Shown here piece after piece: positions 8,508 to 46,079 of a stretch of DNA of 64,000 nucleotides. How positions within the stretch are numbered: position 1 is the stretch's first letter; the number at the start of each line of letters is the position of its first letter. Made by a program: the position numbers and the translations under genes. The stretch comes from Nostoc sp. PCC 7107 (lineage in GTDB: Bacteria > Cyanobacteriota > Cyanobacteriia > Cyanobacteriales > Nostocaceae). The DNA lies in assembly GCF_000316625.1 (NCBI RefSeq), contig NC_019676.1:545001-609000 (forward strand), written 5' to 3'. The notes under the pieces are model-generated. The model worked only from the letters and a program-made list of their open reading frames with translations, was not told the DNA's origin and searched no databases.

Positions 8508-10007
8508 ATGCTGAGTGTTTTAATTTGGGTACCAATCATCGCTGCGTTAATTATAGGGTTTTGGCCTAGTAATTCCATCCCACCCAATCGCGTGCGCTTG
8601 GTAGCCCTCACTATATCCGGTTTAATCCTGCTGTGGAATTTATTCATCCTCTTTAAATTCGATCTCAACACTCCTGGAATGCAGTTTCAAGAATATCTAC
8701 CTTGGAACGAAACCCTAGGTTTAAGCTATCAATTAGGCGTGGATGGTTTATCAATATTAATGTTGGTTTTAAATAGCCTCCTCACTTGGATTGCTATTTA
8801 CAGCAGTAGTCAAAATACTGAACGCCCCCGGCTATTTTACTCAATGATTTTGTTAGTAAGTGGTGGCGTTGCCGGGGCTTTTCTCGCCGAAAACTTACTT
8901 TTGTTTTTCTTGTTCTACGAGTTAGAATTAATCCCCTTCTATTTATTAATTTCTATTTGGGGCGGCGAAAAACGGGCTTATGCGGGAATCAAGTTTCTAA
9001 TTTACACTGCGGTTTCCGGCGCATTAATTTTAGCCACCTTCTTAGGTATGGTGTGGCTGACAGGTTCCACTAGCTTTGCCATTGATGCTGTCTCCACTCA
9101 AACCCTCTCCGCCGGACTCCAACTGCTTTTGCTATCAGGAATCATCCTGGGTTTTGGCATCAAAATTCCTTTAGTTCCCTTCCATACATGGCTACCTGAT
9201 GCTTATGTTGAAGCTTCCGCACCTATCGCCATTCTTTTAGGTGGTGTGTTAGCCAAGCTAGGAACCTATGGTTTATTGCGGTTTGGGATGGGAATGTTTC
9301 CCAATGCTTGGAGTGTTGTTGCCCCAACCTTAGCCATTTGGGGCGCAATTAGCGCGATTTATGGGGCAGTCGTGGCGATCGCGCAAAAAGATATTAAGCG
9401 CATGGTAGCATACAGTTCCATCGGTCACATGGGCTATGTGTTGCTTGCCAGTGCTGCTAGTACCTCCCTCGCGCTGGTCGGTGCAGTTTCCCAAATGTTT
9501 AGCCACGGTATTATCCTCGCAATTCTCTTCCATTTGGTAGGAGTCGTTGAAGCCAAAGTTGGCACAAGAGAATTAGATAAACTCAACGGTTTAATGAGTC
9601 CTATCCGTGGCATACCTTTAATTAGTGCCTTACTCGTATTAAGTGGCATGGCTAGTGCGGGTATTCCCGGTTTAACAGGATTTATCGCGGAATTTATCGT
9701 CTTTCAAGGTAGTTTCTCAGCCTTTCCCCTCTCAACAATATTATGTGTCGTCGCCAGTGGTTTAACTGCTGTATATTTCGTTATCCTCCTCAACCGCACC
9801 TGTTTTGGTAGACTCGACAATTTAGCCTACTATCCCAAAGTATTGTGGTCTGAGAAAATGCCAGCCCTAATTTTAGCAGCCTTAATCATCTTTTTAGGAG
9901 TCCAACCTACTTGGTTAGTGCGCTGGAGTGAAACCACAACTACGGCAATGGTAGCGGCAATTACCCCTGCGGAAAAAACCGTAATTTCTCAAGTTGTATT
10001 GAAGTAG
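8508..10007 (+). CDS. ndhD: NDH-1 subunit NdhD, CO2-uptake type (NdhD3/NdhD4)
   Basis: This 499-residue NuoM/NdhD-family proton-translocating subunit has about 14 predicted transmembrane helices. Diagnostic segments are FFLFYELELIPFYLLI (conserved membrane glutamate), KIPLVPFHTWLPDAYVEA and VAIAQKDIKRMVAYSSIGHMG. It starts 55 bp after ndhF and, with the downstream Cup protein, defines an NDH-1MS-type module rather than the respiratory NdhD1/D2 complex. The 3/4 paralogue assignment is not certain. Confidence 0.88.
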   Translation: MLSVLIWVPIIAALIIGFWPSNSIPPNRVRLVALTISGLILLWNLFILFKFDLNTPGMQFQEYLPWNETLGLSYQLGVDGLSILMLVLNSLLTWIAIYSSSQNTERPRLFYSMILLVSGGVAGAFLAENLLLFFLFYELELIPFYLLISIWGGEKRAYAGIKFLIYTAVSGALILATFLGMVWLTGSTSFAIDAVSTQTLSAGLQLLLLSGIILGFGIKIPLVPFHTWLPDAYVEASAPIAILLGGVLAKLGTYGLLRFGMGMFPNAWSVVAPTLAIWGAISAIYGAVVAIAQKDIKRMVAYSSIGHMGYVLLASAASTSLALVGAVSQMFSHGIILAILFHLVGVVEAKVGTRELDKLNGLMSPIRGIPLISALLVLSGMASAGIPGLTGFIAEFIVFQGSFSAFPLSTILCVVASGLTAVYFVILLNRTCFGRLDNLAYYPKVLWSEKMPALILAALIIFLGVQPTWLVRWSETTTTAMVAAITPAEKTVISQVVLK

Positions 10008-36675: not shown

Positions 36676-38286
36676 TTATTTTTGAATGAGTCCAGCAATG
36701 GCAGCAATTAATTTTACCGGATCAGCGGGTTTGGCAATATGCAGTTGAAATCCGGCGGCGAAAACTAGCTGTTGTGTTGCCTCTGCGGCGTAAGCTGTGA
36801 GGGCGATAGCGGGAATTTTGCCACCTTGATTAGTAGGTTGCGATCGCAGTTTGCGAATTAAAGCATAACCATCGACATCTGGCATACCCAAATCACTTAA
36901 CAGTAAATCTGGCAGGGACTGTGCGATGGATTCAAGGGCTGCTTGGGCGGATTGTGCGGCGGTGACAATTGCTCCCTGTTGTTCCAAAAAAAATGCCAGA
37001 AACTCTCGTGTATCCGCATCATCATCTACTACTAATACCTTGATGCCTTCTAGAGGCAGAGAAAGCATAGCTAATGGATAGGAAGGTACTTTGGTTTCTT
37101 CCGTGACTAACTCTCGATTTTGTGGCTGGGCTGGTAAGCAAACTGTAAATGTTGCGCCTTGCTCTTCTCCAGGACTTTCTGCCCAAACTCTACCACCATG
37201 TAACTCGACTAGCTGGCGAACAATGGCTAAACCCAGTCCTAATCCGCCTGCTCTCCTGGTGATGCTACTATCTGCTTGACGAAAATACTCAAAAACGTAA
37301 GGCAAAAACTCAGGACTAATACCTTTACCTGTATCCTGAATCTGGATTTGCACTTGCGAATCGATCTGTTTTAAATTAACAGTCACCTGTCCACCATCGG
37401 GGGTAAATTTGACGGCGTTCGATAGCAAATTCCACACAACTTGTTGTAGACGGCTACTATCACCTTTTACTTGCCCAATTGTAGAATCAAGATGCAGTTG
37501 AATTTGAATTGATTTCGCTTCTGCTGCCAATTGCACTGTTTCTAAGGCAGATTCAATGGTGGTAGTGAGATTAACATTTTCTAAATTCAGTGATAACTTA
37601 CCGCGCAGAATCCGAGAGATATCTAATAGATCATCAATCAATTGCACCTGTAACTCTGCATTCCGTTCAATTGTCTCTAAGGCGCGATCAGTGGCGGCTT
37701 CGTTTAAGTTGCGTTTCCGTAATAGCTTCGCCCAGCCCAAAATCGGATGCAGGGGCGATCGCAGTTCATGAGACACTATCGCCAAAAATTCATCTTTAAT
37801 ACGGTTTGCAGCTTCGGCGGCTTCTTTAGCTTGTTGGCGTTCTTCCGCTACAGCTAAGGCTTGATCCCGTAAGTTCTTATATTCTTGCACTCGAAAGGTT
37901 AAATCTGTCACATCTTGAATGGAAAACAGTGCATAAAATCCATCTCCATCTAATGACGGTACAGCAGTAACTGTTGTGTGTTGAATGCGGTATTTATCTT
38001 GTGGTAGTGCTACAGGAATGACATATTTATGCAACTGTGAAGAAAAGATGGAAGGTGGCCCGCCTTCAAAAATTTGCTTTAACCGGATAGTATAGCGGGG
38101 TTGATGCAGATGAGGAAAATACTCGTCAATCGAGCTTCCTAGAATATTATGTCTGGGAATTTTTGTCCATTCTTCCAAACAGCAGTTCCAAAATAAAACG
38201 GTGTAGTCTGAATGTAGAACAAAAGCTCCCAAAGGAATTTGGTCTAACAAGCTAAATTTTTCCTGGGCTTGCTCAATTCTGCTCAT
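36676..38286 (-). CDS. Hybrid sensor histidine kinase (PAS-HisKA-HATPase-REC)
   Basis: This 536-residue soluble hybrid kinase has an N-terminal PAS domain (~10-130, LGAFVLHSDYTVLFWNC), a coiled coil, HisKA with VSHELRSPLHPILGW (phospho-His), HATPase_c with N-box NLLSNAVKF and G-boxes DTGKGIS and GLGLGLAI, and a C-terminal receiver (VLVVDDDADTREF, LLLSDLGMPD, KPAD). No membrane segments. It lies 164 bp after cheC on the same strand, so it may be part of the chemosensory locus, feeding into or from the CheY/CheC branch. The partner and signal are unknown. Confidence 0.88.
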   Translation of the reverse strand: MSRIEQAQEKFSLLDQIPLGAFVLHSDYTVLFWNCCLEEWTKIPRHNILGSSIDEYFPHLHQPRYTIRLKQIFEGGPPSIFSSQLHKYVIPVALPQDKYRIQHTTVTAVPSLDGDGFYALFSIQDVTDLTFRVQEYKNLRDQALAVAEERQQAKEAAEAANRIKDEFLAIVSHELRSPLHPILGWAKLLRKRNLNEAATDRALETIERNAELQVQLIDDLLDISRILRGKLSLNLENVNLTTTIESALETVQLAAEAKSIQIQLHLDSTIGQVKGDSSRLQQVVWNLLSNAVKFTPDGGQVTVNLKQIDSQVQIQIQDTGKGISPEFLPYVFEYFRQADSSITRRAGGLGLGLAIVRQLVELHGGRVWAESPGEEQGATFTVCLPAQPQNRELVTEETKVPSYPLAMLSLPLEGIKVLVVDDDADTREFLAFFLEQQGAIVTAAQSAQAALESIAQSLPDLLLSDLGMPDVDGYALIRKLRSQPTNQGGKIPAIALTAYAAEATQQLVFAAGFQLHIAKPADPVKLIAAIAGLIQK

Positions 38287-38450: not shown

Positions 38451-39056
38451 CTATCCGGACATTTCTTCGTTAATCGCTTTAATTAACGCATCAAATGTCC
38501 CCACCTCAAAGATTAAAATAATATCCCCAATTAGTTCCAATTGTTCAATTGCAAACCTTGCTTGTGCCAGTAATATTTTAGTTTGATCATTATCATTATC
38601 AAATAATAATAAATTATCAATTTTGTCTTCTAAATAAATAGGTATTGTGTAATTCATGCGTTGCTTTAATACATTGCTAATTGAACCCATTACTCCATTA
38701 ATCACAATATTGCCTATTTCGCTTAGAGTACCAATTTTTACCTCATCTAAATCTGCTGAATTTGCTTCTTCTCCAGTCAAAACTGCCACTAATGTTGATG
38801 CACTTTCTGTCGGGAAAATTAACCCCGCAGTCCCATAAAAGGAGCCTGTAAAACTCAGCTTGACAGATGCTAAATTAGCATCATGAAATCGGGTTGCTAA
38901 TTCTTGATAAGCTTGTATAGCAGTCAAGACTTTGACAAAGGGAATTTCCAAACTAATGTGAGAATCTACCATTTCATTCAGTAGACTTGCGGCTCGACCA
39001 ACTCCAATATTAATTAATTCTTGTAAAGCATCTAGTTGATCTACTGTCACATTCAT
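38451..39056 (-). CDS. cheC: CheC-type CheY-P phosphatase
   Basis: This 201-residue CheC/FliY-family phosphatase dephosphorylates phospho-CheY. The first active-site motif is exact: D-ALQ-E-LI-N followed by 22 residues and P (DALQELINIG...IPF). The second site keeps E-x2-N-x22-P (SEIGNIVING...IPIY), but the first position is Gly instead of Asp/Ser. It is translated 7 bp after cheY, its likely substrate. CheC is rarely described in cyanobacterial chemosensory clusters. Confidence 0.85.
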   Translation of the reverse strand: MNVTVDQLDALQELINIGVGRAASLLNEMVDSHISLEIPFVKVLTAIQAYQELATRFHDANLASVKLSFTGSFYGTAGLIFPTESASTLVAVLTGEEANSADLDEVKIGTLSEIGNIVINGVMGSISNVLKQRMNYTIPIYLEDKIDNLLLFDNDNDQTKILLAQARFAIEQLELIGDIILIFEVGTFDALIKAINEEMSG

Positions 39057-39063
39057 AGGATGT

Positions 39064-39429
39064 TTATTCCTTTGTATTTATAGCTTGCTGAACCACTTCG
39101 CGTAATTGTTGTTCTTTTGGTGGTTTATTGATAAAGTTAACTGCTCCTAAGTTATAGCTTTGATTACGTGCGCCTTCTTGAATATCTGCCGAAATGATAA
39201 TTGTGGGAATTTTTAACCCTTCATCTTGTAAAGCTTGGAGAAATTCAAATCCATTCATATCTGGCATAAGTAAATCAGCCAATACACAATTAGGCTGATG
39301 TTTGTGAACTATTTCTAATCCTTCACGCCCATTAGTTGCTTCTAATATTTCATAACCATCGGCTTGCAGAAACTTGCGAATCATTCTCCGCGAAAAGGCT
39401 GCATCGTCAATAATTAACACTAAGCTCAT
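39064..39429 (-). CDS. CheY-like single-domain response regulator
   Basis: This 121-residue receiver has the acidic pair (LIIDDAAFSRRMIRKFL), phospho-acceptor VLADLLMPDMNG, the switch Ser in IIISAD, and the lysine KPP. It has no output domain, so it acts by protein contact. It forms a probable operon with cheC (7-bp gap) and is divergent from cheA with the InsA-like gene between. It is the probable phosphoacceptor of this locus's CheA. Confidence 0.88.
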   Translation of the reverse strand: MSLVLIIDDAAFSRRMIRKFLQADGYEILEATNGREGLEIVHKHQPNCVLADLLMPDMNGFEFLQALQDEGLKIPTIIISADIQEGARNQSYNLGAVNFINKPPKEQQLREVVQQAINTKE

Positions 39430-39642
39430 CAGGTTGATCCTAAAAATTCATTGGGTTATGTTTACTCATTTTATATTGGTAATTCCGCCGATAAATGTTG
39501 TTGAATAAAACTCAGAATGTCGAAATAAAATTTAATTTATCTATAATTTAATTTTATATTTTTCAGCAAAAGCAACATTTTTTCAAAATACATATACTGC
39601 TGAAACTATAATGCTACTTTTGGGAGAGTTTTGTCAAATTAA

Positions 39643-39912
39643 TTAGGTTTTGGCAATCTCATCTCTTGGCTGGGCTTGCCGTAGCCAGTGTAAGATGGTG
39701 GTGTGGTGAATGTCTGTAACGCGTTCAATTTCCCGTAGGCTCATACCTTTGCAATACATTTTTAAGCAAAGTTGCTTGATATCATTTGAATAAGTCCAAG
39801 AATGGTAAGATTCAAGAAACTGACGGCCACACTGTTTACATTTGTAGCATTGTCTGTTTTTGCGACGACCATTCTTATAAGTTTGAGTTGAGTGGCAACG
39901 AGGACATTGCAT
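39643..39912 (-). CDS. Orphan IS1-InsA-like protein (zinc finger + HTH)
   Basis: This 89-residue protein matches the InsA half of IS1-family elements: MQCPRCHSTQTYKNGRR and CYKCKQCGRQF (two CxxC zinc knuckles), then a helix-turn-helix (GMSLREIERVTDIHHTTILHWL). No InsB transposase gene follows in the 213 bp downstream, and I see no terminal inverted repeats. It is therefore either an IS1 remnant or a domesticated DNA-binding protein. Start ATG 39912; a TTG at 39939 adds nine residues. It lies in the divergent gap between cheY and cheA. Confidence 0.75.
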   Translation of the reverse strand: MQCPRCHSTQTYKNGRRKNRQCYKCKQCGRQFLESYHSWTYSNDIKQLCLKMYCKGMSLREIERVTDIHHTTILHWLRQAQPRDEIAKT

Positions 39913-40053
39913 TGCTCTCAGTTGAATTATTAAGGACAATCATTATCTTTTCAGCATTACCTACTGTGAACATCTTTCTAGGGAAATATATCTATTGATT
40001 TAAAAAATATTAAAATTAAGACGAAAGATATAAATTTATCGCCGATCAATCTA

Positions 40054-42258
40054 ATGGAGTTAACAGAAATTGACAACGATGATATGGAAGCATTTCTCTT
40101 GGAAAGCAATGAGAGTTTGTCCGAAATTGAAAGAGACATCATTGAGCTTGAGAAAGCATCTGTTAATCGAGAAGCTTTAGAGCGGATTTATCGCTCGCTC
40201 CATACACTCAAAGGAAACTGTGGATTTTTGCCATTTCCCAAGTTAGAGTCACTGGCTCATGCGGGAGAAAGTTTAATTTCATGTTTGCGTGAGAGTGCAA
40301 AGCAATCATTAGTTAACAGCGATCGCAACTTTGCTGTTACACAACCAATCATCAGCACCTTATTACAAACAGTAGATAGCATCCGTCAGCTGTTATCGCA
40401 GATTAAAACTACCACACAAGAAGGCAGTGATGATTATTCTACACTTATTCGTGATTTAGCGAAATTAGAACAAACTCAACAGGTAGTTACCATCTTACAA
40501 TCATCTCCAGCGACCGAACCGATTGAAACAGCAACTACAATCACAGGCTCAGAATCAGCTTATATCCGCGTGAATGTGAGTTTGCTAGATCAGATGATGA
40601 ATCTAGTCGGTGAACTGGTTTTAAACCGGAATCAAGTGATGGGATTTTCCCAGAAATATCAAGATAGTAGCTTTAGTGCGACTTGTCAGCGGCTCAACTT
40701 GATTACATCCCAGTTGCAAGAAGGAGTGATGAAAACTCGACTGCAACCAATTAGTACTATTTGGCAAAAATTCCCGCGAGTAATTCGAGATTTAGCGATC
40801 GCACATGGTAAACAAGTTGTAGTAGAAATGCAAGGTGCAGAGACAGAAGTCGATAAAAGTATTATTGAAGCTATCAAAGATCCCTTAACTCATTTAGTCC
40901 GCAACTGTATTGATCATGGCATTGAATTGCCAACCGAGCGCAGTGCTGCTGGGAAACAAACCACAGGAAAGATTTTTTTGCAAGCCTTTTATGAAAACAG
41001 CAAAGTTAACATTGAAATCGGTGACGATGGACGCGGTTTATTTCCAGCACAACTCAAAATGCGGGCGCAGCAACTAGGTTTAGTAAGTCCTGCACAAGCA
41101 AAGACAATGAATGATGCAGAAGCTATAAATTTAATTTTTTTACCAGAATTTTCCACCTCCCAACAAGTGACAAGCCTCTCTGGGCGAGGGGTAGGGATGG
41201 ATATTGTCAAAAGTAATATTGATAAAATTAACGGCAGCATTGAAATTGATAGTCAGCCGGGAATAGGAACCACCTTTAAACTAAAAATTCCCCTGACATT
41301 AACAATTATCCCCGCATTAATTGTGAACAGTCATGGCGATCGCTATGCTATCCCCCAAGCCAGCCTGGAAGAATTAGTTTACTTAGAACCAGAGCAAGCA
41401 CTCAAACAAATTGAAACATTCTACGACGTACCCGTATATCCCCTGCGAGGAAATCTCATCCCCTTAGTTTACCTCAATCAAGTCCTACACCCATCAAGCC
41501 CTCCCCACTCAGTACTCAGCACTCAGCAAGCTGCTCAACCCTCCCTACAGCCAACAGCACTAGTCTTAGTAGTTATCCAATCCGACTACTACCAATTTGG
41601 GCTAATTTTAGACGCAGTTGAAGACATTCAAGATATCGTTGTCAAACCTTTAGGAAAGCAATTAAAAGCCCTATCTCTGTTTACGGGAGCTACAATTATG
41701 GGCGATGGCAGAGTAGCATTAATTCTTGATGCGGTAAATTTGGCAAAACAAGCGGGAATACATGAAAAAAAACAACTATTGGCGAGTATTTTCGGTGCAA
41801 ACATCCCAACAGAAGTAGAGGAACGTCAATTAATTTTACTGTTTCAAGGAACTCAAAGTGCATTGATGGGGATTCCGGTGGCGATCGCTTTTCGGTTAGA
41901 AGAAATTCAGCGTCATGCTGTCGAAAAAGTGGGGAATCAAGATGTTGTCCGGTCTTCTGGCAGAATTTTGCCTATAATCGACCTGAAAAACATCTTTCCT
42001 GACGATACAAAGCCTAGTCAAGAAACCGAGACACTGCAATTAGTGATTGTCTCTCCCAATGCCGAACTGAGTGTGGGCTTAGTAGTTGAACGCATTCTTG
42101 ATATTGTAGAAGAACCACTGACAATTCAAGGTATCCCTAGTAGACCTGGAGTTTTGTTTTGTGCTGTCATTCAAGGGCAAATCACAGAAATATTAGATGT
42201 TGAGGCTGTGATTAAGATTGCTAACCCCTATTTGTTGCAAGTGAGCGATCGTGGCTGA
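40054..42258 (+). CDS. cheA: Chemotaxis histidine kinase CheA with tandem CheW-like domains
   Basis: This 734-residue kinase has an N-terminal HPt domain (phospho-His50 in RSLHTLKGNCGF), no separate P2, a dimerisation domain (LLDQMMNLVGELVLNRNQ), HATPase_c (RNCIDHGIELP, GDDGRGLF, SGRGVGMDIV), a CheW-like domain (~425-560) and a second CheW-like domain (~590-730). The double CheW tail without a receiver distinguishes it from many cyanobacterial CheA proteins. An insert from three heptamer repeats lies in the first CheW domain (HPSSPPHSVLSTQQAAQ). It overlaps cheW by 8 bp. Confidence 0.92.
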   Translation: MELTEIDNDDMEAFLLESNESLSEIERDIIELEKASVNREALERIYRSLHTLKGNCGFLPFPKLESLAHAGESLISCLRESAKQSLVNSDRNFAVTQPIISTLLQTVDSIRQLLSQIKTTTQEGSDDYSTLIRDLAKLEQTQQVVTILQSSPATEPIETATTITGSESAYIRVNVSLLDQMMNLVGELVLNRNQVMGFSQKYQDSSFSATCQRLNLITSQLQEGVMKTRLQPISTIWQKFPRVIRDLAIAHGKQVVVEMQGAETEVDKSIIEAIKDPLTHLVRNCIDHGIELPTERSAAGKQTTGKIFLQAFYENSKVNIEIGDDGRGLFPAQLKMRAQQLGLVSPAQAKTMNDAEAINLIFLPEFSTSQQVTSLSGRGVGMDIVKSNIDKINGSIEIDSQPGIGTTFKLKIPLTLTIIPALIVNSHGDRYAIPQASLEELVYLEPEQALKQIETFYDVPVYPLRGNLIPLVYLNQVLHPSSPPHSVLSTQQAAQPSLQPTALVLVVIQSDYYQFGLILDAVEDIQDIVVKPLGKQLKALSLFTGATIMGDGRVALILDAVNLAKQAGIHEKKQLLASIFGANIPTEVEERQLILLFQGTQSALMGIPVAIAFRLEEIQRHAVEKVGNQDVVRSSGRILPIIDLKNIFPDDTKPSQETETLQLVIVSPNAELSVGLVVERILDIVEEPLTIQGIPSRPGVLFCAVIQGQITEILDVEAVIKIANPYLLQVSDRG
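41507..41527. repeat. Heptamer repeats inside cheA
   Basis: Three in-frame units ACTCAGT, ACTCAGC, ACTCAGC (21 bp, encoding about seven residues) interrupt a surface loop of the first CheW-like domain. They are the same family as in the rRNA spacer at 1105. The length is a multiple of three, so the reading frame survives. Confidence 0.8.
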
Positions 42259-42700
42259 ACAACAACTCTGCACTTTTTGGTTAAATAAAATTTACTTTGG
42301 CATTGATGTGCGGCATGTTCAAGAAGTGATTCGTCCCCAAGTTCTAACTCGTGTACCTTTAACACCGCCAGATATTTGTGGATTAATTAACTTGCGCGGC
42401 CAAATTATTACTGTCATCGATTTACAGCAGCGATTAGATATGGGTGAGTCAGCCAGGCGGAACACTCAGCTAGAAGCACCCCTGGGGTTTAATATCGTTG
42501 TATGTTCTGATCATGAAGTAGTCAGTTTACTTGTTGATGATGTTGGAGATGTTTTAGAATTTCCCGAAAACACCTTTCAATCTCCACCCGCAACCCTAAA
42601 AGGTAGAATGCGTCAGATACTGGCGGGAGCTTACCCAATTGCAGAAGGATTTTTGTTAGTTGTTGACACTGAAAAAATTCTCAACGTTAAAGTCATTTAG
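42251..42700 (+). CDS. cheW: Chemotaxis coupling protein CheW
   Basis: This 149-residue single-domain CheW links receptors to CheA. It has the typical first strand QLCTFWLNKIYFGIDVRHVQ, the ICGLINLRGQIITVIDL core and a conserved LVDDVGDV. The start is GTG at 42251, overlapping the cheA end by 8 bp. The stop codon (TAG) is shared with the SD AGGAG of the next gene. Confidence 0.92.
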   Translation: MAEQQLCTFWLNKIYFGIDVRHVQEVIRPQVLTRVPLTPPDICGLINLRGQIITVIDLQQRLDMGESARRNTQLEAPLGFNIVVCSDHEVVSLLVDDVGDVLEFPENTFQSPPATLKGRMRQILAGAYPIAEGFLLVVDTEKILNVKVI

Positions 42701-42712
42701 GAGTTATTGGCA

Positions 42713-44017
42713 ATGGCTACAAATCGGTCTGGGAAAACAGCTAACTCTAAATCTCCCACAGAAAATGGTGCGGAACCAATACAAACCAACCAAAATCCAA
42801 CAGACATCCAACTACAACCTTTATTAGCAGCATTAAAAGCCGCCAAAAATGGTGATTTCACCGTTCGTCTAGCAGTTGAGGACAATGGTTTAAGTGAAAT
42901 TGCCACAGTTTTTAACGAATGGGTGAGTTTGAACCAAAATGTCAACAACGAAGTGGCTCGTATCGCTTCGGAGATTGGTACAGAGGGAAATTTAGGTTCT
43001 CAAGCCGTAGTCAAAGGTGCTAAAGGTTCTTGGCAAGAATTACTCAACAACGTCAATCAAATGTCTGCAAATATCTCCGAGCAGATTAAAAGTATTCGAG
43101 AAGTTACCCTAGTCGTTGCTCAAGGAAATTTATCTCAGCACATCGAAGCCGACAACGCCGGAGAATTTAAACAACTGACTGATAATGCCAATCAGATGAT
43201 TAGCCGTCTGCGATCTTCTATCAGACAAATGGCAGATGTCGCCACAGCAGTTGCATCTTCCGCCGAAGAACTCACCGCAGTCAGCAAAGAAATGACAGAA
43301 AATGCCAAACAAACTTCCGAACAGGCAAATTCCGCCTCAGCTTCAGCCGAACAAGTCAATCAAAATAGCATCACCGTGGTGACAGCAGTCGAAGAAATGA
43401 ACGCCAGCATTCGAGAAATTGCCAAAACTGTTGCAGAAGGGGCGAAAGTCGCAAATCAGGCAGTTAAAACTGCCGATCGCACCAATGAGACAATAGATAA
43501 ACTTGGTCAAAGTAGCTCGGAAATTGGCAAAGTCATTAAAGTTATTACATCCATAGCCCAACAAACAAACTTACTCGCACTCAACGCCACCATCGAAGCC
43601 GCTAGAGCCGGTGACGCAGGGAGAGGATTTGCCGTCGTCGCCAATGAAGTCAAAGAATTAGCCAAGCAAACAGCCAACGCCACAGAAGATATTAGTCAAC
43701 GTATTGAAGCGATTCAATCTGATACTCAAGGTGCGATGGCCGCCATCAGCCAAATTACTGACATCATCAACCAAATTCACGACCTACAAAGCACCATCGC
43801 CAGCGCTGTCGAAGAGCAAACGGCAACCACAAATGAAATTGCCCGGAATATCGCCGAAGCCGCCCAAGGTACAACAGATATTGCCAAAAGTATCGGCATT
43901 GTCGCCCTGAATGCTCAAACTACCACCATTGGAGCCAGTAATACTTCAGCCGCCGCCACTGAATTAGCCCGAATGGCTGTAGATTTGCAAAGGGTTGTCA
44001 CTCAGTTTAAGTATTGA
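42713..44017 (+). CDS. Soluble methyl-accepting chemotaxis protein with HAMP-like repeats
   Basis: This 434-residue receptor has no transmembrane segment. The N-terminal half carries two HAMP-like units ([20 protein letters not shown]..., and [20 protein letters not shown]...) joined by [19 protein letters not shown], as in poly-HAMP osmosensor kinases. The C-terminal half is the MCP signalling coiled coil with the hairpin tip [20 protein letters not shown] and a closing [12 protein letters not shown] methylation-type helix. It probably forms a cytoplasmic array with CheA/CheW. AGGAG (42699-42703) precedes ATG 42713. The ligand is unknown. Confidence 0.9.
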
Positions 44018-44151
44018 TAGGCACTTGGGCTTTGCCCAAGACCGTACTTCTCTCCTTGTGGGCGGAACAAATTTAAAATCCCCAAGCTGTAACCCAAAAG
44101 TGGGTACAGTCAATCTAAAATCGCAAATCTAAAATCCAAAATGGATTGACC

Positions 44152-45219
44152 ATGCCAAAAATTCGGGTATTAGTTGTGGATGATGCGGTGTTGGTTCGCA
44201 GTCGCGTCAGTAAGATTTTATCCAGCGATCCGCAACTGGAGGTAGTTGGAGTTGCCGCCAATGGTCGCATTGCCTTAGCCAAGATTCCGCAAGTCAATCC
44301 TGATGTTGTCCTCTTAGATGTGGAAATGCCAGAAATGAACGGTTTGGAAACTTTGGCCGCCCTCAGACCCATTTATCCACACCTCGCAGTAATTATGTTC
44401 AGCACCTCTACCCGCGCTGGCGCAACTGCTACCATAGAAGCTCTCTCTTTAGGTGCTTCAGATTACGCCACAAAACCGAGTAATCTAGGTAGTGTGGAGG
44501 CTGCTAACCAACATATCCGCCAAGAATTAATTCCCAAAATTAAACTATTTGGTGCAGGAATCCCGGCGGTTTCGCCCTTAAAGGCGATCGCCAATGCTGT
44601 TGTTCTTCCTATCCCGAAAAAAACAGCACCAGTGGATGTGGTCGCCATTGGGGTATCTACTGGGGGGCCAAACGCTCTTGCTACACTGCTGTGTAATATA
44701 CCTGCTGATTTCTCTGTTCCTATTCTGATTGTGCAACACATGCCGCCGATGTTTACAAAGCTACTCGCCGAAAGATTATCTTCTAAGTGTCAAATTTCTG
44801 TAAAGGAAGCAGTTACAGGAGTTACCTTAAAAGCTGGACAAGTGTGGTTAGCACCGGGAGATTTTCATCTGATTGTGCAGCGTGAAGGAAATCAGGTGTG
44901 TCTAGCTGTTCATCAAGCACCTCCAGAAAATTCTTGTCGCCCTTCCGTGGATGTACTGTTGCGTTCAGTAGCCCAAGTTTATGGTGCAAGGGCGATCGCA
45001 GTGATTCTTACAGGTATGGGTCAAGATGGTCTGCACGGCTGTCAATGTATTCGAGAAGTTGGCGGACAAGTGTTAGCACAAGACGAAGCTAGTAGTGTAG
45101 TCTGGGGAATGCCTGGTTTTGTCGTCAATGCCGGATTAGCAGATCAGATTGTTCCCCTTGAGAAAATGGCGGGTGAAATTATGCAGCGCATCCATCCTGT
45201 TCAAAGGTCAGGTCTGTAA
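44152..45219 (+). CDS. cheB: Chemotaxis methylesterase CheB
   Basis: This 355-residue protein has an N-terminal receiver (VLVVDDAVLVRSRV, VLLDVEMPEMNG, KPS) and a C-terminal methylesterase domain with catalytic Ser in GVSTGGPNAL, His in IVQHMPPMFT and Asp in LTGMGQDGLHG. It removes receptor methyl groups, with CheR. I use the ATG at 44152 rather than the TTG at 44146. It is 134 bp after the MCP; this gap holds repeats of AATCTAAAATC. Confidence 0.92.
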   Translation: MPKIRVLVVDDAVLVRSRVSKILSSDPQLEVVGVAANGRIALAKIPQVNPDVVLLDVEMPEMNGLETLAALRPIYPHLAVIMFSTSTRAGATATIEALSLGASDYATKPSNLGSVEAANQHIRQELIPKIKLFGAGIPAVSPLKAIANAVVLPIPKKTAPVDVVAIGVSTGGPNALATLLCNIPADFSVPILIVQHMPPMFTKLLAERLSSKCQISVKEAVTGVTLKAGQVWLAPGDFHLIVQREGNQVCLAVHQAPPENSCRPSVDVLLRSVAQVYGARAIAVILTGMGQDGLHGCQCIREVGGQVLAQDEASSVVWGMPGFVVNAGLADQIVPLEKMAGEIMQRIHPVQRSGL

Positions 45220-45230
45220 TGAAATAGGCA

Positions 45231-46079
45231 ATGGATATTAATACTTCGGATTTTGATTATTTACGGCAATTAGTTTATCAGCATTCAGCAGTGGTGTTAG
45301 ATGGTGATAAAACTTATTTGGCGGAGTTATATTTGCAGCCCATTGCTGAAGCAGCAGGATTTACCACAATTACAAATTTAATTACTTACCTGCGACATCA
45401 ACCATTGAATGATTTGCATATTCAGACAATTGAGGCATTAGTTACTAACGAAACGTCATTTTTTCGGGATACATATCCTTTTGAAGCATTGAAACAACTG
45501 GTTCTGCCAGATTTGATAAAAAAACGGTGCATTGAGCGATCACTCAATATCTGGTGTGCTGCCTGTTCTCATGGACAAGAACCTTATAGCGTCGCTATAC
45601 TGATTCGTGAGCATTTTCCTTTATTAGCCAATTGGTCTTTAAACATCATTGCTAGTGACTTTTCTGGCAAAGTTTTAGCCCGTGCCAAGGAAGGGCGTTA
45701 TAACCAATTAGAAATTAGGCGTGGTCTACCTAACAATTTGCGAGAAAGATATTTTAAATTATTAGATAATGAATGGCAAATTCATGATGAAATCCGCAAA
45801 ATAATAAACTTTCGTCAAATAAATCTTATTGATTCTTGGTCAATTTTACCTAATATTGATATTATCTTTCTTCGCAATGTTTTAATTTATTTTGATATAG
45901 CTACTAAGAAAGATTTACTCACCAAGGTGAGACAGCAATTAAACCCAGATGGTTATTTATTTCTGGGTAGCGGGGAAACTACAATCAATCTCCATGAATC
46001 ATTTGAGCGAGTGCAATTTGACAAGAGTATTTTCTATCGATTGCGTCCAGTCGCTTCAGATATCACACCGAGAAAGTAA
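45231..46079 (+). CDS. cheR: Chemotaxis methyltransferase CheR
   Basis: This 282-residue SAM-dependent glutamate O-methyltransferase has an N-terminal helical domain and a Rossmann-type domain with NIWCAACSHGQEPYS (SAM-binding glycine loop region) and DIIFLRNVLIYFD (family motif). With CheB, it gives reversible methylation of the adjacent soluble MCP. It starts 11 bp after cheB and is the last gene of the plus-strand operon. Confidence 0.92.
   Translation: MDINTSDFDYLRQLVYQHSAVVLDGDKTYLAELYLQPIAEAAGFTTITNLITYLRHQPLNDLHIQTIEALVTNETSFFRDTYPFEALKQLVLPDLIKKRCIERSLNIWCAACSHGQEPYSVAILIREHFPLLANWSLNIIASDFSGKVLARAKEGRYNQLEIRRGLPNNLRERYFKLLDNEWQIHDEIRKIINFRQINLIDSWSILPNIDIIFLRNVLIYFDIATKKDLLTKVRQQLNPDGYLFLGSGETTINLHESFERVQFDKSIFYRLRPVASDITPRK

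Follow-up and report, generated by a model that had tools for sequence, protein, structure and literature searches.

A chemosensory locus of the cyanobacterium Nostoc sp. PCC 7107 is probably a composite of two once-separate modules, the junction of which appears to be controlled by a domesticated autorepression circuit of the insertion sequence IS1, a reading to which we assign a probability of roughly 0.6. The locus lies in a stretch of 64,000 nucleotides (hereafter the window; positions 545001-609000 of the one-contig, 6.33-Mb genome, NC_019676.1) and has two divergent arms, cheY-cheC and cheA-cheW-MCP-cheB-cheR, MCP being a methyl-accepting chemotaxis protein, with a PAS-bearing histidine kinase gene behind cheC and an insA-like gene between cheY and cheA. 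The reading is carried by this gene content, by a constant CheY-CheC-PAS unit with swapped effectors, by a lone insA under selection, by the paired sites around it and by the uniqueness of those sites in the genome, all of which the sequence comparisons establish. From them we infer which way phosphate moves, that InsA binds DNA and represses, which promoters are used and what the physiological output is. The retained cassette of IS1 repressor and ends is the most unusual part.

We propose that module A would be cheA-cheW-MCP-cheB-cheR, an adapting array with a soluble HAMP receptor, and module B the CheY-CheC-PAS unit, in which the phosphate on CheY, cleared by CheC, would set the activity of the PAS effector. 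A signal would pass from the soluble HAMP receptor through CheA and phosphorylated CheY to the PAS hybrid kinase and on to another response regulator; CheC would end the signal, and CheB and CheR would adapt the receptor. Once the two modules had joined, an IS1 may have landed at the junction; its insB would have been lost and the repressor InsA and both end sites would have stayed, the end sites now carrying the promoters of the cheY-cheC-kinase arm. Like its Escherichia coli counterpart at the IS1 promoter, InsA would act as repressor of these end-site promoters; it might also influence cheA, the start of which lies 141 nt from insA, whereas lineages that lost insA would have kept one end as a promoter. 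If true, this would be a clear case of an insertion sequence turned host regulatory switch with repressor and operators both kept, for which the natural insA-loss lineages would serve as controls; the role of CheC away from flagella would be the tuning of a PAS effector, not a motor, and the use of a flagellar-type CheA by flagellum-less cyanobacteria would become testable. To the wider claim, that an insertion sequence autorepression circuit was captured whole as a local switch and that CheY-CheC-PAS is a general plug-in unit driving unrelated effectors (two kinase types and a diguanylate cyclase) in two phyla with no need of flagella, we would give even odds. A search of the open-licence literature, with subscription papers mostly outside it, returned no description of either the CheY-CheC-PAS unit or the insA cassette.

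The lone insA gene and the sites around it

The insA-like open reading frame between cheY and cheA (39643..39912, minus strand), overlooked in an earlier sequence-only reading of this DNA, encodes 89 aa with a zinc ribbon and a helix-turn-helix, with no insB downstream. We compared the best 80 of 108 confirmed CheC loci in named species, drawn from cyanobacteria with ten Nitrospirota records. Because cheA is divergent from cheY-cheC in 37 further loci, and because 32 of the 80 match all of cheA, cheW, MCP, cheB, cheR, cheY, cheC and the kinase, the arrangement of the genes is more than chance. An insA frame or its remains stand between cheA and cheY in 36 of the 38 divergent loci (19 open, 17 decayed), with 2 undetected; L015, L020 and L024 have an open frame when it is read from the real start. 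No insB was found behind che-linked insA in any locus, whereas 20 of 29 other InsA loci have one. Among 17 che-linked copies, the ratio of nonsynonymous to synonymous substitution rates (dN/dS), read for those of the 136 pairs with dS between 0 and 2.2, is 0.05-0.33, indicating purifying selection. Since the frame recurs in place, goes without insB and evolves slowly, we rejected random transposon debris as its explanation. In a tree of InsA proteins, the che-linked copies (18 tips) split from IS1 and other lone InsA proteins (21 tips) with ultrafast bootstrap support (UFBoot) of 98, after the long branches L134, L126 and L145 had been dropped and L015 left out for a stop inside the matched stretch; before the long branches were dropped, L134 fell among the che-linked side. 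An AlphaFold2 model of InsA has a zinc ribbon and three helices (mean predicted local distance difference test score 86, predicted template modelling score 0.52).

On the CheA tree described below, the insA-bearing loci sit in a clade of 36 tips (UFBoot 100), inside which L025 has no detectable insA, and L141 (genome G163) has the cheA/cheY junction without insA. Given that junction and that clade, one gain and several losses of insA would be the simplest history. In L049, L055 and L059, insA stands only about 20-31 nt before cheY, as the first gene of the operon.

An inverted pair of sites with the pattern TGCTGAAA-NN-ATAATG, both exact in the window, flanks insA. Site 1 (TGCTGAAAAGATAATG; 39941..39956, minus strand) resembles the left end of IS1 and lies 28 nt before the insA start codon, and site 2 (TGCTGAAACTATAATG; 39598..39613, plus strand), an inverted copy recognised also in an alignment of 11 Nostocales loci, resembles the right end. 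Sites 1 and 2 are the only two exact copies of the pattern in the 6.33-Mb genome; at one mismatch there are two further genome copies, with two for a control pattern at up to one mismatch and a window expectation of 0.06. Cyanobacterial IS1 ends have a similar core: in 7 of 14 IS1 loci TGCTGAA is exact at one end or at both. The forward core lies 36-46 nt before the insA start in 17/17 loci tested, compared with 1/6 of other lone InsA genes. Across 13 loci, no 16-column window upstream of insA is better conserved than the forward site (95% vs 62%). This site is kept wherever insA is open (19/19) and in 7/17 loci where insA has decayed (Fisher 8e-5, uncorrected for relatedness); the reverse site is kept in 10/19 and 10/17, respectively. 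When inverted repeats around insA were sought de novo, the best score was 16/20, no higher than the maximum among 30 shuffles and not significant alone, and for that reason we base the sites on conservation and the whole-genome count.

The two best minus-strand promoter-like matches, directed towards cheY, have their -10 within the two sites. A promoter scan predicts TTGACA-18-CATTAT, with its -35 at 39632..39637 (minus strand) and its -10 inside site 2 on the same strand, and TTCACA-17-GATAAT, with its -10 inside site 1. In E. coli the IS1 promoter overlaps the left end of the element and is repressed by InsA, which binds both ends, and competes there, via its zinc finger and helix-turn-helix (PMC12428005). 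With IS1 the che-linked cassette has in common the InsA zinc ribbon and helix-turn-helix, inverted end sites and a predicted promoter at the ends, but it differs from IS1 in its lack of insB, single copy, fixed cheY/cheA position and purifying selection. The cassette might instead be a non-autonomous, still mobile mini-IS1 that is moved in trans and is here by chance. Both ends with an insA are the expected look of a deleted IS1; against that, the position is constant in 36 of 38 divergent loci, the genome holds one full InsA-type copy and one 40-residue partial match but no further exact end site, and the che-linked InsA copies form one group, so that we consider a mobile element extremely improbable.

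Several observations weigh against a working InsA circuit. The gene is dispensable, being decayed (17) or undetected (2) in half of the 38 divergent loci; relatedness among the loci deprives the Fisher value of independence; of the 19 intact loci only 10 have the second site at threshold, and deep lineages lack it; and L045, L049, L051, L055 and L059, all deep loci, escape the strict pattern TGCTGAAANNATAATG, the one-base-shorter site variant used for them having been set after they had been seen. Promoter-like matches in the region number 9 where 3.4 are expected, which makes the promoter predictions weak, and Foldseek with the InsA model gave no match at E <= 0.001. It may be, then, that insA is an old IS1 remnant in which selection keeps an end-borne promoter and InsA regulates nothing any more. 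Such a remnant would fit the 17 decayed loci, 16 of which retain at least one end site though only one retains both, and it would fit L028, L029 and L031, where the forward site is exact although almost nothing of insA is left. It sits less well with frames that stay open in 19 of 38 loci from several groups of cyanobacteria, with dN/dS staying at 0.05-0.33 even where dS exceeds 1, and with the forward site present in all 19 open-frame loci, and on balance we judge it improbable, though it retains some weight. A regulatory InsA acting at retained ends is the reading we prefer.

Other cyanobacterial genes of this kind were seen alongside. Genome G163 carries, elsewhere, a lone InsA (L135:4124-4435) that is 63% identical, with a TGCTGAA-type site 51 nt upstream, and in two genomes of one genus a lone InsA-like gene without insB (L136:4102-4476 and L137:4145-4531) lies near what appears by eye to be a triosephosphate isomerase gene; lone InsA may be a recurrent type of regulator in cyanobacteria. 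A true IS1 (insA and insB match) is found in L031 (5591-6279) between cheW and cheA, distinct from the decayed che-linked insA at 9188. In L042, L045, L049, L051 and L055, a palindrome-like stretch close to ATCTATCTTAAGATAGAGGTT stands about 20 nt before the forward site, with a weaker version in Nostocales, and is possibly a second operator.

The CheY-CheC-PAS unit and its effectors

CheY, a single-domain receiver (39064..39429, minus strand), is followed on the same strand by CheC (38451..39056), recognised by the Pfam CheC/CheX family. CheC bears two E-x2-N phosphatase sites, at residues 13 and 113, and matches Thermotoga CheC in the PDB (2f9z, E 1e-11); both sites are present in 80/80 loci. 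Directly behind cheC, and absent from the gene list of the sequence-only reading, Pfam identifies a PAS-HisKA-HATPase-receiver hybrid histidine kinase (36676..38286, minus strand), the N-terminal PAS of which makes up the conserved third part of the unit. The gene in this place opens with the same PAS domain in 75 of the 80 CheC loci and is followed by a histidine kinase in 46 or a GGDEF domain in 28, with one incomplete record, and 5 loci have no such gene. Within the 46 kinase-type loci a probe recognised a receiver in 35 and not in 11, in one of which (L052) Pfam finds it; Pfam also confirmed the GGDEF domain in L085 and L047. The PAS domain is at least 42% identical over the 75 loci, has 35 residues conserved at 95% or more among 76 proteins, and, measured against the window, shows 54-65% identity in most of the loci sampled from the three effector types (43% for L085). 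The kinase core is 62-64% identical to that of the window in L051 and L059 and only 26-30% in four sampled Nitrospirota loci and L042; with the PAS conserved, different kinase families therefore stand behind one PAS.

The distribution of cheA suggests the order in which the parts came together. The flanks of the CheC loci extend to at most 10 kb and often end at contig ends, so that the absence of cheA means none within that stretch; on this count cheA lies beside the unit in 35/36 cyanobacterial kinase-type loci, 0/28 GGDEF-type, 0/10 Nitrospirota and 2/6 others. In the single kinase-type exception, L022, CheC lies some 1 kb short of where the available DNA ends. All ten Nitrospirota units fall in a single clade (UFBoot 100). 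The che operon would seem to have been added to the kinase version of the unit, and the PAS effector is the probable target or partner of CheY and CheC. That the effector is swapped between kinase and diguanylate cyclase speaks for an output that is non-flagellar and of an enzyme type, though it leaves room for pilus control.

A kinase beside its receiver is a common two-component layout, and the flow could be the reverse of the one we propose, the PAS kinase serving as a second sensor that phosphorylates CheY, with CheY integrating this input with that of CheA and acting on an unlinked target, for instance the type IV pilus. The Nitrospirota unit, which has a kinase and no linked cheA, would fit that direction too. 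Yet 28 of 80 loci carry the same PAS on a diguanylate cyclase and no kinase, and because of these the kinase is not the constant partner of CheY and CheC; we think reverse flow unlikely, while granting it more credence than the other alternatives weighed here. Our preferred direction remains from CheY, under the control of CheC, to the PAS effector.

Muff and Ordal reportedly proposed that a "class II" CheC serves non-chemotaxis pathways. The present unit resembles that class in that CheC stands next to a receiver and a sensor protein in the absence of flagella, but here the PAS is constant with a swappable effector, and a full che operon adjoins the unit in the cyanobacterial kinase-type loci.

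CheA affinity and relation to known chemosensory systems

CheA (40054..42258, plus strand) was placed in a midpoint-rooted tree of 72 CheA cores and 389 columns, from which a length filter left out L042, and in which PatA-type CheAs from the same genome stood in for the named hmp, ptx and pix systems. All 40 of the CheC-locus CheAs fall in one clade (UFBoot 89), which G004 joins (88), and they form a 47-tip group with the CheAs of G001, G007, G013 and G004 (UFBoot 100); the three PatA-type CheAs of the same genome and its CheB/CheR-type CheA fall elsewhere. FliG is present in these basal relatives (4/4: G001, G007, G013, G004), and CheA, CheC and FliG share one contig in G001 and G007. In the CheC-locus genomes tested FliG was found in 0/5, and a search for FliG_C in the Nostoc genome gave 0 matches. 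By the tree grouping and the FliG survey, this organism lacks FliG, yet its locus has a CheA of the kind that belongs to a flagellated lineage.

The locus is alike to flagellar-class systems with CheC, of the Bacillus/Thermotoga type, in having CheA, CheW, MCP, CheB, CheR, CheY and a CheC with two E-x2-N sites, and in the grouping of its CheA with those of flagellated basal relatives. It is unlike them in the missing FliG and in the two CheW domains of CheA, and whereas CheC of the CheY-CheC-PAS type is at least 50% identical to that of the locus, the flagellar CheC of G001, G007 and G013 is only 28-29% identical. Two CheW domains in CheA belong mostly to class F5 and in some cases to F1 (PMC10782961). 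In the related che cluster of the FliG-bearing genome G004, CheA is accompanied by a CheX-type phosphatase gene (L143:3528-4016; Pfam CheX E 2e-18) as well as by a further two CheY-like genes.

Four other chemosensory clusters were found in the Nostoc genome by CheA and MCP searches. Three have a PatA-CheY-CheW-MCP-CheA layout, with PATAN (Pfam DUF4388) recognised in two of the three regulators, and the fourth has CheB, CheR, a receiver-bearing CheA and a receiver-HATPase protein. For cluster L094 a Wsp-like identity was tried and rejected, the protein present there being receiver-HATPase and not GGDEF. A CheX/CheC-family search of the genome returned this CheC as its single match. Across 291 genomes from the phylum some CheC match occurs in 24, CheC at least 50% identical in 12 by the identities listed, and CheA at E <= 1e-100 in 6; in the genus of the window CheC is present in 10 of 11 genomes.

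These clusters frame the comparison with the PatA-linked type IV pilus systems of the hmp and pix/ptx type. The locus is like them in the clustering of CheA, CheW, MCP and CheY genes, and unlike them in having no PatA-type regulator, in having CheC, CheB and CheR, and in a CheA that belongs to a different clade, as judged from the own-genome stand-ins. The sequence-only reading had taken the locus for a separate CheC-bearing system that might stand apart from the hmp, ptx and pix clusters, with CheB and CheC as components unusual for cyanobacteria. Separation is partly supported, by the clade of its own in which CheA falls, by the missing PatA-type regulator and by the soluble poly-HAMP receptor. 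Within this genome CheC occurs at this locus alone; CheB and CheR are not particular to the locus, since a second cluster of the same genome carries both. For Synechocystis, PMC5812497 gives no known homologue of a CheY phosphatase.

The locus could nevertheless be an ordinary motility system in which CheY acts on type IV pili. Cyanobacterial chemotaxis-like systems are treated as controllers of these pili in PMC12288463, where the known systems act on them, and other clusters of this strain are of the type IV pilus sort. Among the proteins of the locus, however, open reading frame calling and Pfam found neither a PatA-type regulator nor a pilus gene, and its CheA lies outside the PatA-type groups; we accordingly rate a pilus output as unlikely, a shade below reversed phosphotransfer and above the remnant explanation of insA.

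Receptor arm and domain content

Open reading frame calling and Pfam recovered cheC, the divergent cheY, cheA, cheW, MCP, cheB and cheR, all at the coordinates of the sequence-only reading and with the expected domains. Its description of CheA was likewise accurate: Pfam recognises Hpt, dimerisation and ATPase (HATPase) domains and two CheW domains, and no receiver. Behind cheA on the plus strand follow CheW (42251..42700), the MCP (42707..44017), CheB with receiver and methylesterase domains (44146..45219) and CheR (45231..46079). With its CheA, CheW and MCP the locus falls within the definition of a chemosensory system, and with CheB, CheR and a predicted methylatable receptor it contains a methylation-adaptation set; in L014 and L027 the cheA, cheW, MCP and cheY arm is present and cheB/cheR were not found beside the MCP within the stretch examined.

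The MCP is a soluble methyl-accepting protein with an N-terminal HAMP array. That it lacks a transmembrane-like stretch, as had been claimed, agrees with a largest 19-residue mean hydropathy of 0.98. Pfam recognises one HAMP unit, and within residues 31-170 three stretches can be aligned to 9trk, a poly-HAMP structure of a histidine kinase (E 4e-47); the HAMP array of 9trj was also matched. The earlier label "poly-HAMP" is right, because the first 170 residues fit the HAMP arrays of both structures; turgor or redox, the stimuli that the sequence-only reading had in mind, would be speculative inputs of this receptor. A single methylation-consensus stretch occupies residues 365-375. In G035 a second, longer CheC/CheX-like protein (337 aa; L142:15785-16798) adjoins CheB.

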